A stretch of DNA of 64,000 nucleotides from Mesorhizobium ciceri biovar biserrulae WSM1271. GTDB taxonomy: Bacteria; Pseudomonadota; Alphaproteobacteria; Rhizobiales; Rhizobiaceae. A model generated the notes under the pieces. The model was not told where the DNA came from, did no database searches, and saw nothing but the letters and a program-made list of their open reading frames with translations. The DNA lies in assembly GCF_000185905.1 (NCBI RefSeq), contig NC_014923.1, positions 4,301,501 through 4,365,500 on the forward strand. Direction: 5' to 3'. The number at the start of each line of letters is the position of its first letter. Position 1 is the stretch's first letter. Shown here one piece after another: positions 14,743 to 18,935 of this stretch. The position numbers and the translations under genes were made by a program.

Positions 14743-15540
14743 CTAGCCTAGCGAGCGGCGAAACAGCTCGCCTTTTCCGGCAATCTGCTCGCCAATGCCG
14801 CCAAGCCGCAGCATATGCCAGGCAAGTGCATGGTTGCTGGAGGTGACCGGTTTCCCCAACTCCTTCTCGACCTCCTCGATGATGCGGGCAACGCGCATGC
14901 TGGTGCAGGAAACGAACACCGCATCACAGTCGCTCGACGCACCGATTTCCAAGATGGCCTGCTTGACCGATGCCGGCGTGATGCGTGCAACGACATTGTC
15001 GTCCGCCTCGTTGAAGGAGCCCATGACCGGAATATCCATCCCCCGCGCCATCAGCGATGCCCGCAGCGAATGATTGATTTTCGCCAAGTAAGGGGTGAGC
15101 AGCGCGATCCTCGAGACCCCCAGGGCCTTCAGCGCGGCGCGTGCCGCGGTCACCGGATTGGTCACCTGCACACCAGGCAGCACCTCGTGAACGCGCTCGG
15201 CAACCTTATCCTCGCCGATGACCAGCGCTCCCGACGTGCAGGCAAAGCCGATCACATCGAACTTGACGTCGGGCAAGAGTCCCACCGTTGCCGGGATTAC
15301 CGCCGACATTTTCATCAGGTTTTCCGGTGTGATCTCGACATCGCTGTAGAGCCGCGCCTCGTACAGCGCGATGTCGCGCGCGGGCAGCGCATACCGGAAT
15401 TCATCCTCGATGGTCTGGTCGGTCCGCAGCACGAGCAGGCCGAGATTGGCGCGCGTGCCGATACCGTCATCGGTCTTGAAGGGAATGTGTTCCTTGTCGA
15501 GGACAAGCGTGTCGTCGGCGCGGCTAACCGGGGCGTCCAT
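14743..15540 (-). CDS. Asp/Glu racemase / maleate isomerase family protein (EutA-like)
   Basis: 265 residues. Two cysteines lie in the family's catalytic positions, Cys101 (GFACTSGALVIG) and Cys212 (VFVSCTSMR), as in maleate cis-trans isomerase, arylmalonate decarboxylase and EutA-type proteins. The stretch TNPVTAARAALKALGVSRIA and the TPY loop also match. EutA belongs to ectoine catabolism, but the other ectoine genes are not nearby, so the substrate is unknown. The ATG is preceded by GGGAGGGG. It is transcribed divergently from the FAD dehydrogenase, and a copy of the shared palindromic operator lies 31 bases upstream of its start. Confidence 0.82.
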   Translation of the reverse strand: MDAPVSRADDTLVLDKEHIPFKTDDGIGTRANLGLLVLRTDQTIEDEFRYALPARDIALYEARLYSDVEITPENLMKMSAVIPATVGLLPDVKFDVIGFACTSGALVIGEDKVAERVHEVLPGVQVTNPVTAARAALKALGVSRIALLTPYLAKINHSLRASLMARGMDIPVMGSFNEADDNVVARITPASVKQAILEIGASSDCDAVFVSCTSMRVARIIEEVEKELGKPVTSSNHALAWHMLRLGGIGEQIAGKGELFRRSLG

Positions 15541-15570
15541 GGCGCAGTCCCCTCCCTGATGCCAATCAGA

Positions 15571-15582
15571 ATTGTCGACAAT
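15571..15582. promoter_or_regulatory. Palindromic operator 1, racemase side
   Basis: Perfect palindrome ATTGTCGACAAT, within a longer block GAATTGTCGACAATAG that is repeated at 15723-15738. TTGT-N2-ACAA-type palindromes are typical of FCD-class GntR regulators, and such a gene lies in this locus. On the minus strand a TTGACA -35 element (15606-15611 read backwards) ends 23 bases before the palindrome, so a bound regulator would cover the -10/start region of the racemase promoter. Confidence 0.7.
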
Positions 15583-15696
15583 AGAAACGGCGATATTGCC
15601 GAAACTGTCAAGGGCTCTGTGCAGATCCTGGGAACCGGTAAACGCCTGAATTTTGCGCTTGCGCGGATCGCTTGTCCGTCGCCGACCCATTCACCG

Positions 15697-15702
15697 TTGA
15701 CA
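15697..15702 (+). promoter_or_regulatory. -35 element of the FAD-dehydrogenase/GntR promoter
   Basis: Consensus TTGACA. A plausible -10 (TATTGA or TTGAAT, 16-18 bases downstream) overlaps the left edge of operator 2. The transcription start would then fall inside or just after that palindrome, about 25-35 bases before the coding start. The mirrored TTGACA on the other strand (15606-15611) has nearly the same spacing to operator 1. Confidence 0.55.
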
Positions 15703-15724
15703 GGGATCGGCGTCTTCCTATTGA

Positions 15725-15736
15725 ATTGTCGACAAT
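15725..15736. promoter_or_regulatory. Palindromic operator 2, dehydrogenase side
   Basis: Second perfect copy of ATTGTCGACAAT, with flanks GA...AG also shared with operator 1; the two centres are 154 bases apart. It begins 22 bases after the TTGACA -35 element and ends 25 bases before the dehydrogenase ATG, the expected place for repression by steric block. The probable ligand-sensing regulator is the FCD-GntR protein encoded at the end of the same transcript. Confidence 0.7.
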
Positions 15737-15761
15737 AGGAACACAGCCCTTCGGGACAGCA

Positions 15762-17042
15762 ATGCGCGTATTGATCTTGGGCGGCGGCGTGGTCGGGATC
15801 ACCACCGCTTATCAGTTGCAAAAGGACGGCCACGCGGTCACTGTTCTCGAGCAGGCACCGCAGGTGGCCGAGGGCGCGAGCTGGGCAAATGCAGGCATGA
15901 TCGCGCCCGGTCACTCCTTCGTCTGGTCATCACCAGCCGCGCCAAAAATCCTGCTGAAGTCGCTGTTCCTGAAAGACCAGGCGCTTCGCTTCAAACTTTC
16001 CGCCGACCCGCATCTCTACAGCTGGTCGCTGCGCTTCCTCAGGGAATGCACGGCCGCCAAAGCGCGTCGCAACACCCTCCTCAAACATCGGCTTGCGGTC
16101 CATTCCCAATCGGTCCTGCAGGCGGTCGTCAGGGAGGAATCGATCCAATACGACAGGACCTCGGCCGGCATCCTTTACTTCCACCGCAGCCGTCAGGCGC
16201 TCGACAAGGGCGTCGCCAACATGCGCCTGCTGGAGGCCGACGGCCAGGAGATCCGCATTGTCGACGCACAGGAAATCATTGACCGCGAGCCGGCGCTGGC
16301 TTCGTCGCGCGGCAGCATTGCCGGCGGCATAATGTGTCCAACCGATGAAACCGGCGACGCCGCCAAGTTCACGCGCGCGCTGGCGGCCATCGTCGAAACG
16401 AGGGGCGGCAAGATCCTGACAAGCACGAGGATCGTCGGGATCGAACGCAGGAATGACGCGATCATCCGGGTCGTCACCGACAAGGGAGAATTTCTGGCCG
16501 ACACCTACGTTCTGTGTCTCGGCGCCGAAAGCCCGATCCTCGCCCGCAAGATCGGCCTTGGTTTGCCGATCTATCCGGTCAAAGGATATTCCCTGACCAT
16601 TCCCATCGTCGACCCGGCGCTGGCTCCAAAACTCCCCGTCATCGATGAGCACAATCTCGTTGCCATCACGCCGATGGGCGATCGCATCCGCGTCACCGCC
16701 ACCGCGGAATTCGCGGGCTATGATCGCAGCCACAAGCCTTCGGATTTCGCCTTCATGAAGCGCGTCACGCAGGACCTGTTCCCGCGCGGTATCGCCTATG
16801 ATCGCGCCGAAATGCGGGCCTGCCTGAGACCCATGACGCCCGACAATCTGCCGATCCTCGGCCTGCGCAACATCAAGAACCTCTGGCTGAACACCGGCCA
16901 CGGCCATATTGGATGGACGATGGCGCATGGATCGGCCCGCATCGTCGCCGAACTGATCGCCGGCCGGGCTGCGCCGATCGCCCTCGACGGTATCCTTCCC
17001 ACACAGGCGCGGTTCGCCGAACCAAGCGCCGCAAAGGCTTGA
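15762..17042 (+). CDS. FAD-dependent D-amino-acid dehydrogenase-like oxidoreductase (DAO/DadA family)
   Basis: 426 residues. The N-terminal dinucleotide fold is MRVLILGGGVVGITTAYQLQ (GxGxxG at 8-13) with the acidic end of strand 2 in VTVLEQ. The C-terminal FAD motif is LNTGHGHIGWTMAHGSARIV. The layout is that of DadA, a quinone-linked enzyme that deaminates D-amino acids to 2-oxo acids at the inner face of the membrane. The substrate is not readable; related oxidases act on glycine, sarcosine or hydroxyproline. The ribosome site is weak. The GntR regulator gene starts 8 bases downstream, so the two form an operon facing the racemase-like gene. Confidence 0.85.
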   Translation: MRVLILGGGVVGITTAYQLQKDGHAVTVLEQAPQVAEGASWANAGMIAPGHSFVWSSPAAPKILLKSLFLKDQALRFKLSADPHLYSWSLRFLRECTAAKARRNTLLKHRLAVHSQSVLQAVVREESIQYDRTSAGILYFHRSRQALDKGVANMRLLEADGQEIRIVDAQEIIDREPALASSRGSIAGGIMCPTDETGDAAKFTRALAAIVETRGGKILTSTRIVGIERRNDAIIRVVTDKGEFLADTYVLCLGAESPILARKIGLGLPIYPVKGYSLTIPIVDPALAPKLPVIDEHNLVAITPMGDRIRVTATAEFAGYDRSHKPSDFAFMKRVTQDLFPRGIAYDRAEMRACLRPMTPDNLPILGLRNIKNLWLNTGHGHIGWTMAHGSARIVAELIAGRAAPIALDGILPTQARFAEPSAAKA

Positions 17043-17050
17043 CCGACGCC

Positions 17051-17779
17051 ATGCTCCGACCCACCAGGCACAGCAACCAGGACGACGATGCGGCGTTGGC
17101 ATCCAAGCCGATCAAGACCGGCCCGCGCGTCTATGAAGAGATCCGTCGCATGGCGATGGACTATCGCTTCAAGCCGAACGAGCGCATCAACGAAGTGGCG
17201 CTTGCCGCGAGGCTGAATGTCAGCCGCAGCCCGATCCGGGAGGCCCTCCAGCGGCTGGTCACGGAGGAACTCATCACCTTCCAGACCAATCGCGGCTTCT
17301 TTTGCCGCGGCTTCGATGTCGACGAGGTCGTCAATCTTTCCGACGTGCGGGCGGTGCTTGAGGAGCGCTCCGTCAGGCTGGCGATCCAGCGCGCGACCAA
17401 TGAAGAGCTCGCCGCGCTCGTCGACTGGTGGACGCTCACCATGGCGCGCGCCGACTCGTTTTCCAGCGCCGAGCTGACCGCCAGGGACGAGGAGTTTCAC
17501 ATCCGCATCGCCAGGCTGTCAGGCAATCCCGAACTGGCGCGCATGCTCGAAGGCATCAACACGCGCATCCATTTCGTTCGCAAGATCGAAGTGGAGAAGC
17601 ACCGGCGACTGTCGACGACCTACACCGAACACAGCGAAATCGCCCGAGCCATGGTAGCTCGCGATGCCGACACGGCCGCAAGGCTCATGCATGACCACAT
17701 CGACATCAGTGTCGCCGATGCCATGTCGACCGTCCGGGAAGGCCTGGCCCGGATATACGTCGACGTCGATCAGATCTGA
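17051..17779 (+). CDS. GntR family regulator, FCD subclass
   Basis: 242 residues. The N-terminal winged helix spans about residues 20-88 (LAARLNVSRSPIREALQRLV is the recognition helix region). The C-terminal all-helical FCD sensor carries the metal/ligand signature: EERSVRLA, DEEFHIRIARLSGN with Asp and His, and MHDHIDIS near the end. It binds DNA as a dimer and usually responds to an organic acid or amino-acid derivative. The two ATTGTCGACAAT palindromes in the adjoining divergent promoter region are its likely operators. Autoregulation follows if it shares the dehydrogenase transcript. Confidence 0.9.
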   Translation: MLRPTRHSNQDDDAALASKPIKTGPRVYEEIRRMAMDYRFKPNERINEVALAARLNVSRSPIREALQRLVTEELITFQTNRGFFCRGFDVDEVVNLSDVRAVLEERSVRLAIQRATNEELAALVDWWTLTMARADSFSSAELTARDEEFHIRIARLSGNPELARMLEGINTRIHFVRKIEVEKHRRLSTTYTEHSEIARAMVARDADTAARLMHDHIDISVADAMSTVREGLARIYVDVDQI

Positions 17780-17816: not shown

Positions 17817-18818
17817 TCAGGCAACCTTGTCGAGCAGCGGCCTGAGCGCCGGGTGAATTTCCGGCGAGGCGTGCTTGATCAGGGTCAGCAGCGCGCGTTC
17901 GTTCTCGTAAAGTGGCCTGTCGACGCCGATATGTTCGATCAGCCAGCCGGCTTCGCCGGCATCGATCGTCTCGGCACGGCGGGCCAGGGCCTCGGCCGCC
18001 CTGTTCTTGGCTTCCCATTCGGCTTCGATGTCGCCAGGAGATCGGTAGGCCTCCATGATGCCGGCAAGCCCGCCGGAGATCATGCGGCTGAAGAAGCCGC
18101 CGATTTCCGGATCGGCATGTTCGAGGAAGGCGTCATGGCGCAGCGCCACGTCGCGCGTCGGTGCTTCGTAGCCGGCCGAGCACATGACGAAATTGGCGAT
18201 CGCCTTGACGAACAGCTCGTTCCAGGACGGATCGTTTTGTCCTTGAGCAGTCCGCTCGTTGATCTTGAGCAGCACCTCGGCCTCGGCGCGCGTGATGGCG
18301 ATGTTGCCGTCGCCGCCATGGGCATGGAGGATCCGGCGCAAAAGCTCGACCTCCGCCTGCGCGACGAGGCCCGGAGCCAGCACGCCGCCGAGCATCAGCG
18401 GCCCCTTGCCGTCAATGACGGCATGCGCCACCTGCTCCAGCGCATACACACAAAGCTGGGCCGGCGACGATTTCGCCTGTTCCAGCACATGCACCAGCAA
18501 TTCGAGTTCGGTCCGGCTGTCGACCATGCCGTCGCGCGAGATCGTGCGGATCAGCCAGTCGGCATTGTCCTGCGAGATATAGCCCGACGGCTTTTCCTGG
18601 TGGACGATATAGTCGGTGACCGCCTCAATGAAGAAGGGCGGCCATTCCTGGCATTTGTCCTTCGCCGTGCCATCGAGCGCGAACAGCGCCTCGGCCTCGC
18701 CACGCGTCACGACGCCGTCGCCGAACACTTCATGGCGCAACATCGCCACGTCCTCCGCGGCGATGCGGCTTTTCGAGGTCAGCCCGGCCACCGGCGCGCT
18801 CATGATCAATTCGCCCAT
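17817..18818 (-). CDS. Uncharacterised helical protein with a duplicated A-B-A-B architecture
   Basis: 333 residues from the ATG preceded by GGGGACGACAA. There is no signal peptide or membrane segment, so it is probably cytosolic. The chain is an internal duplication. Unit A reads GDGVVTRGEAEALF...EWPPFFIEAV (33-72) and again GDGNIAITRAEAEVLL...SWNELFVKAI (169-212). Unit B reads YISQDNADWLIRTISRDG (80-97) with a following E-LL-L-SP tail, and again IDAGEAGWLIEHIGVD (285-300) with the same tail. I do not recognise an enzymatic family. It is divergent from the gcv riboswitch and has a copy of the intergenic palindrome 118 bases upstream. Confidence 0.8.
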   Translation of the reverse strand: MGELIMSAPVAGLTSKSRIAAEDVAMLRHEVFGDGVVTRGEAEALFALDGTAKDKCQEWPPFFIEAVTDYIVHQEKPSGYISQDNADWLIRTISRDGMVDSRTELELLVHVLEQAKSSPAQLCVYALEQVAHAVIDGKGPLMLGGVLAPGLVAQAEVELLRRILHAHGGDGNIAITRAEAEVLLKINERTAQGQNDPSWNELFVKAIANFVMCSAGYEAPTRDVALRHDAFLEHADPEIGGFFSRMISGGLAGIMEAYRSPGDIEAEWEAKNRAAEALARRAETIDAGEAGWLIEHIGVDRPLYENERALLTLIKHASPEIHPALRPLLDKVA

Positions 18819-18935
18819 TTGTCGTCCCCGTCCGCCGTCGCCAAGCGCCGGCCCCATAGCGTCACACAAGCCAACATATCAGCAGTGTCTTGAAAAACCG
18901 GCAAACGGCGTGGTTAGTGAAGACTTGTCGCCAAC

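Follow-up and report, generated by a model that had tools for sequence, protein, structure and literature searches.

Twin palindromes in a divergent promoter region of Mesorhizobium ciceri as probable operators of an FCD-GntR regulator linked to a dad-like racemase and dehydrogenase module

Two identical palindromes lie between the divergent units of a small catabolic module in the window (the whole stretch of 64,000 nucleotides of Mesorhizobium ciceri biovar biserrulae WSM1271 that was analysed), and both are probably operators of the FCD-subfamily GntR regulator encoded within the module, which would repress the racemase gene and the dadA-gntR unit of a dad-like route in a coordinated manner (probability about 0.7; Table 1). 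Each operator would cover the start region of one divergent unit, about 20–23 bases past its TTGACA, such that a repressor dimer on each of them would block both promoters, including the regulator's own (autoregulation). A small carboxylate that derives from the substrate or is related to it may bind to the metal-centred pocket of the FCD domain, upon which both units would be released together. As judged from the comparison of relatives, this control model is well supported.

Table 1. Predicted features of the module and of its divergent region in the window
Feature	Position	Strand	Remarks
Racemase-like gene, 265 aa, EutA-like, Asp/Glu racemase superfamily	14743..15540	-	Pfam Amdase 8.3e-22; cysteines C101, C212
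Operator 1 (putative), ATTGTCGACAAT	15571..15582	.	Racemase promoter region, 30 bases 5' of ATG; invariant in 12/12 form-A genomes
TTGACA, -35-like, racemase	15606..15611	-	23 bases from operator 1; inside invariant run of 7
TTGACA, -35-like, dadA-gntR	15697..15702	+	22 bases from operator 2; inside invariant run of 9
Operator 2 (putative), ATTGTCGACAAT	15725..15736	.	dadA promoter region, 25 bases 5' of ATG; inside invariant run of 16
dadA, D-amino-acid dehydrogenase subfamily	15762..17042	+	NF001933 420 bits (cutoff 383); Pfam DAO 2.2e-72
FCD-subfamily GntR regulator, 242 aa, presumed repressor of both units	17051..17779	+	Pfam GntR 1.4e-15, FCD 2e-25

The geometry of the sites is as a preliminary description of this DNA had reported, in that both exact 12-mers are present with their starts 154 bases apart, and each lies 22–23 bases past a TTGACA box, on opposite strands. 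They are embedded in a direct repeat of 20 bases (15569-15588 and 15723-15742), in which 19 of 20 bases are identical. The shared flanks GA...AG that had been described are indeed present, but both copies carry them in one and the same orientation; the repeat is thus a direct one, and mirroring is confined to the promoter elements. With regard to these mirrored promoters, the TTGACA boxes on opposite strands are conserved, but a sigma-70 consensus scan of 15541-15770 returned no promoter and no consensus -10, so that the label “promoter” rests on the conserved boxes. A search of the own genome (6.69 Mb, two contigs), which had been proposed as a check, yielded four exact copies of the 12-mer, two of them at this locus, versus none for the control pattern read backwards, indicating that the twin 12-mers are not due to chance. 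The other two copies are located 5' of another FCD-GntR gene (L004) and in stretch L001, respectively, while the 14-mer AATTGTCGACAATA is matched exactly only at the two operator places.

The regulator scores above the Pfam gathering thresholds for both of its domains (GntR, 57.1 bits versus 27; FCD, 90 bits versus 24.3), which places it in the FCD subfamily. Its gene starts 8 bases past the dadA stop and is, judged by position, the promoter-distal gene of the dadA unit. An acid or amide together with three histidines (D..H, H, H), recognised by eye in the regulator alignment with the L004 row left out, forms the candidate metal site. Next to the module a 350-aa ORF (17817-18869, minus strand), which has no Pfam or NCBIfam match at 0.001, adjoins it in nine of ten Mesorhizobium loci.

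Conservation within the genus was assessed by searching 146 Mesorhizobium genomes with the racemase (E <= 1e-60), which gave a match in 62 of them; here and throughout, counts across species are uncorrected for kinship. The matches fall into form A, with 95–100% racemase identity (12 genomes, the own included), and form B, with 43–47% (50 genomes). Each of the 62 genomes has one match, so that the two forms never occur together among the 146 genomes at this threshold (P = 0.005 for chance non-overlap). Ten of the 12 form-A loci are the ten Mesorhizobium loci found earlier (named relatives, 95–98%) and were counted once. Both exact 12-mers are present in all 12 form-A loci, and when the intergenic regions are aligned the two sites are the sole fully invariant 12-mers, lying in runs of 14 and 16 bases. 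The next longest invariant runs, CCGTTGACA and TGTCAAG, correspond to the two -35-like boxes, and of the 143 columns between the sites 33% are invariant. Among 394 genomes of the family an exact pair 130–160 bases apart was found in three: one is the own genome, a second is of form A as well, and the third is G082, whose pair was taken for chance, since the outer bases of its sites differ. The sites are thus real and, as their conservation indicates, functional.

Beyond the genus, the sites are found in six loci of the Rhizobium/Shinella type (L014-L018, L020), where dadA and a livK-type gene flank them; a livKHMGF-type importer is inserted between the site and the racemase gene, and dadA is followed by a Rid gene and then the regulator. 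Both sites are exact in five of the six, and L014 has one change (ATTGCCGACAAT) on one side; regulator orthologs with 71–77% identity stand beside dadA in all six. Two further loci with both exact sites beside dadA were found in plasmid records of Neorhizobium and Rhizobium 11515TR, and a record of Shinella sumterensis, the same species as L020, has an identical gene order as annotated. In all eight loci tested (two from one species; L014 left out) TTGAC precedes the site by 19–21 bases on the proper strand on both sides, so that the twin sites and their mirrored geometry are kept in Rhizobium, Shinella and Neorhizobium despite the importer genes between site and racemase. Absence of the palindromes from relatives had been named as the observation that would count against the model; instead, they are kept in all form-A and in the Rhizobium/Shinella-type loci. 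In these six loci an EamA-type transporter gene is located 3' of the regulator (L070-L075; L204 907-1851) and may belong to the unit.

The kind of control proposed here is already known from Atu1419 of Agrobacterium fabrum, which according to the excerpted account is an FCD/VanR-group GntR repressor with a 10-mer palindromic operator, ATGTATACAT, present in three copies, two of which lie 190 bp apart in a divergent region that contains its own promoter (PMC7797058). In the same account Arg45 reads G3 of the operator, the effector domain contains Zn, and the controlled genes are those for hydroxycinnamate, with a folate derivative as the proposed effector (PMC7797058). The module regulator aligns with the Atu1419 structure 6z74 (3e-14) and retains the arginine, and its decamer TTGTCGACAA has G3 and C8. 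The excerpted system and the module are alike in having an FCD regulator, a short palindrome with G at position 3, and a divergent region that carries this palindrome twice, unchanged, together with the promoter of the regulator; they differ in the palindrome, the spacing, the controlled genes and the proposed effector. In view of the twin sites conserved across relatives, the module's FCD-GntR regulator is likely to repress both units along with its own gene, as has been published for Atu1419. Atu1419 was further reported to be a tetramer and was seen to loop DNA by electron microscopy (PMC7797058), which raises the possibility that a tetrameric module regulator holds both operators and represses by means of a DNA loop. 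The recurrence of twin sites in diverged loci would fit with such a loop, but the exact twin-site spacing ranges from 150 to 208 without a common helical phase; looping is therefore possible but unneeded, and we consider it doubtful.

The position of the sites bears on the sign of the control. FCD regulators that activate are known, so that activation of one or both units by the module regulator, instead of repression, was considered. Yet on both sides the palindromes are placed past, and not before, the TTGACA in the 12 plus 8 loci that were checked, which is the position of a repressor, making activation very improbable.

Four more distant loci (L019, Cupriavidus, Azospirillum and Caballeronia) have two palindromes each, with other letters. 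In L019, whose regulator is 62% identical, both sites read CTGTCGACAG, at a distance of 200 bases. In the other three the pair occupies the divergent region next to dadA or to the Rid gene: AGTGTCGACACT and AGTGTCGACAGT, 127 apart, in Cupriavidus; TGTGTATACACT and TCTGTATACAGA, 138 apart, in Azospirillum; and a perfect AGTGTCGACACT with an imperfect ACTGTCGACACC, 145 apart, in Caballeronia, where no GntR gene is annotated in the stretch. As background, five such loci contain 0.31 perfect 6+6 palindromes with G3/C8 per kb, the module sites included, and 2.5 per kb when up to one mismatch is allowed. Wherever the regulator is seen, the recognition helix differs in step with the operator letters: SRSPIREALQR is paired with TTGTCGACAA, SRSPVRESLQR with CTGTCGACAG, SRTPLREALNR with GTGTCGACAC, SRTPVREALNR with GTGTATACAC and SRTPVRAALNR with GTGTACTCAC. 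Such regulator-operator pairs can be used to test how FCD regulators read DNA. Some loci count against the model, as does the missing GntR gene in Caballeronia. A set of 21 stretches from 15 loci contained no TTGTCGACAA, and among them a clear pair of perfect palindromes was found in L019 only; GTATAC-like sites were noted by eye in TRAP-type loci. Burkholderia cenocepacia has the racemase, the dehydrogenase, the Rid protein and a regulator (70% likeness to the Cupriavidus one) all on one strand, and the scan used found no TGTCGACA site in this locus.

Within Mesorhizobium, form B provides a further case of such parallel change. Of its 50 loci, 22 were fetched (L140, L141, L143-L162), in which dadA and the 43–47% racemase homolog stand in place of form A, and six of them have GTGTACTCAC at the dadA promoter. 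This operator is present in four of four loci with a linked GntR gene versus two of 18 without (Fisher p 0.002, kinship ignored), and in the remaining 16 loci 3–5 of the 10 operator positions differ. The two loci that keep the operator without a linked GntR gene count against the model; one of them, G438, encodes a GntR homolog with 43% identity elsewhere in the genome.

A second FCD-GntR gene of the own genome (C1:5272108-5272797), whose product is 29% identical to the module regulator over 85 residues, carries the exact 12-mer on its 5' side (L004 1501-1512, C1:5272059-5272070). Orthologs of this gene are present in 47 of the 61 genomes searched, and the 12-mer, 47–51 bases 5' of the gene, is exact in 29 of the 30 loci fetched and has one change in the 30th, indicating that it suits more than one FCD protein. 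The second regulator might accordingly also, or mainly, bind to both module sites, placing the module in a two-regulator circuit. However, in other lineages the operator letters shift along with the module's own regulator, and the outer flanks differ, being AG..CT at the second regulator and GA..AG at the module. Because of the parallel change of operator and regulator the linked regulator is favoured, and we regard a shared operator as rather improbable, although the common 12-mer poses a testable question of cross-talk. The earlier proposal that one regulator controls both directions is thus supported by comparison, with the qualification that its 12-mer also occurs 5' of a second FCD-GntR gene. 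The latter is followed by an enolase-superfamily-like ORF (by eye). Elsewhere in the genome a copy with one mismatch, AATTGTCGGCAATA (L080 1501-1514, C1:4384927-4384940), is found 56 bases 5' of an ORF in which a Nudix-like box was recognised by eye, and the other near-matches in the seven stretches examined gave no clear regulon.

The genes under this control resemble a dad-like set, with a EutA-like two-cysteine racemase and a D-amino-acid dehydrogenase in the window, accompanied by a Rid protein and an importer in relatives. In the predicted route an amino acid would be inverted at its alpha carbon by the cofactor-free racemase, the D form would be oxidised to the imine by the FAD dehydrogenase, and the imine would be hydrolysed to the 2-oxo acid, with help of the Rid protein in relatives. 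An excerpt on the dad system of Pseudomonas aeruginosa describes DadX, DadA and the Rid protein DadY as acting in series; the alanine racemase DadX uses PLP, and the regulator DadR is of the AsnC type (PMC9714295). Compared with this account, the module shares a racemase, an FAD D-amino-acid dehydrogenase and, in its relatives, a Rid protein within one regulated set, but it has a cofactor-free-type racemase and an FCD-GntR regulator, and the window is without a Rid gene. The best Rid match of the own genome lies elsewhere (62%). A search with the livK-type binding protein of Shinella gave a best match of just 30%, so that an ortholog was counted as not found in the own genome, and a linked importer is missing.

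A functional link between the racemase-like protein and a DadA-like enzyme, as the preliminary description had proposed for this locus, is supported by comparison: among 20 loci from beyond the genus whose racemase is at least 57% identical, as called with a home-made gene caller, the dehydrogenase stands beside the racemase in 20, a Rid gene is present in 19 and the regulator in 14, although absences are not firm since some stretches stop at contig ends, and the regulator side of eight loci was taken from the regulator search. Racemase, dehydrogenase and Rid protein are found together in 19 of the 20, and the importers are of liv type in eight, of TRAP type in seven and represented by peptide-type binding proteins in two, with none seen in three. 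The earlier remark that no such pathway is evident thus holds for the window, but not for relatives, in which an importer and a Rid protein complete a dad-like set. In two loci, L028 (10158-10766) and L030 (9104-9649), a further Asp/Glu-racemase-like ORF was noted by eye 3' of dadA, and that of L030 has no Pfam match.

The dehydrogenase exceeds the curated cutoff of NF001933 and belongs to this subfamily. In the racemase-like protein, C101 and C212 are conserved as cysteines throughout the alignment of 87 relatives, a pair that a two-base racemase should have, and racemase activity is therefore predicted. The closest solved structures are, however, maleate isomerases and arylmalonate decarboxylases, and in the structure alignment maleate isomerases have the same cysteine pair. 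Together with EutA being the best NCBIfam model, this leaves room for a decarboxylase, a cis-trans isomerase or a EutA of hydroxyectoine breakdown instead of an amino-acid racemase. Arguing against these, the protein reaches 177.5 bits with TIGR02990 (EutA), under the curated cutoff of 318, and 62.2 bits with NF052327 (arylmalonate decarboxylase), under the cutoff of 225, while a true EutA from an ectoine cluster (L055, positive control) reaches 393.8 bits; in addition, the partners are DadA and Rid proteins, not EutBCDE. Arylmalonate decarboxylase has one cysteine, and the module protein has two that are invariant. Such other activities are thus unlikely, and, given the model score and the gene context, a role in hydroxyectoine breakdown was rejected for the window. 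The protein nevertheless shares a superfamily branch with EutA, from which it differs in score, partners and regulator; according to an excerpt from a review the EutABC steps of ectoine and hydroxyectoine utilisation have not been biochemically evaluated (PMC5924519). Arylmalonate decarboxylase and maleate isomerase (PMC4996985, excerpt) belong to the same superfamily as the racemase-like protein.

Among the matches listed in full-text literature (open-licence PMC papers), in which the letters of the decamer occur in 38 papers, none describes this gene set, and it looks like an apparently undescribed variant of dad-type catabolism. More broadly, and tentatively, the family might represent a widespread, mobile and unpublished pathway that leads from a cofactor-free EutA-like racemase through a dedicated DadA and a Rid protein to, in some bacteria, an indolepyruvate-type ferredoxin oxidoreductase and beta-oxidation, and in whose divergent versions a pair of operators tends to be retained as their letters change together with the regulator. 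If so, the module family would offer a natural experiment on shifts of DNA specificity among FCD repressors. Proteins named only “Asp/Glu racemase family” would be given partners, a regulator and a likely function, and finding the inducer of the twin-operator promoters would be a direct way to the substrate.

With regard to the substrate, a gene annotated as indolepyruvate ferredoxin oxidoreductase is located near the module in Caballeronia, Azospirillum and Cupriavidus (L198 11202-12735, L199 1-405, L200 1-2854), accompanied in Cupriavidus by SDR and beta-ketothiolase genes. SDR, acyl-CoA dehydrogenase and thiolase-like genes are present in L019 with L076, and in L022. By tblastn the oxidoreductase was found in none of L005-L077 (most with about 5 kb flanks) nor in B. 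cenocepacia, and the annotation of the Neorhizobium, Shinella and two Paraburkholderia stretches lacks it as well. As the oxidoreductase is near the module in some loci and was not found in others, a hydrophobic or aromatic amino acid is at most a first guess. The unusual D- or 3-substituted amino acid that the preliminary description had suggested is likewise a guess. A gene of the ATC_hydrolase family (PF14196) directly 3' of the racemase in L023 (5773-6246) and L024 is a weak lead to a cysteine-related ring compound. In the form-B loci cystathionine beta-synthase-like and gamma-lyase-like genes lie upstream in 19 of 22 and are absent in three; the own genome has the gamma-lyase-like gene (94%), with no DadA match nearby. 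This neighbourhood is probably inherited synteny inside one genus, and a sulfur amino acid as substrate is likewise a weak lead. In racemase relatives of about 50% identity (L197 5953-10455; L038, L039) dadA is replaced by genes for an M24-type peptidase and an M20-type peptidase and by a cystathionine-lyase-like gene.
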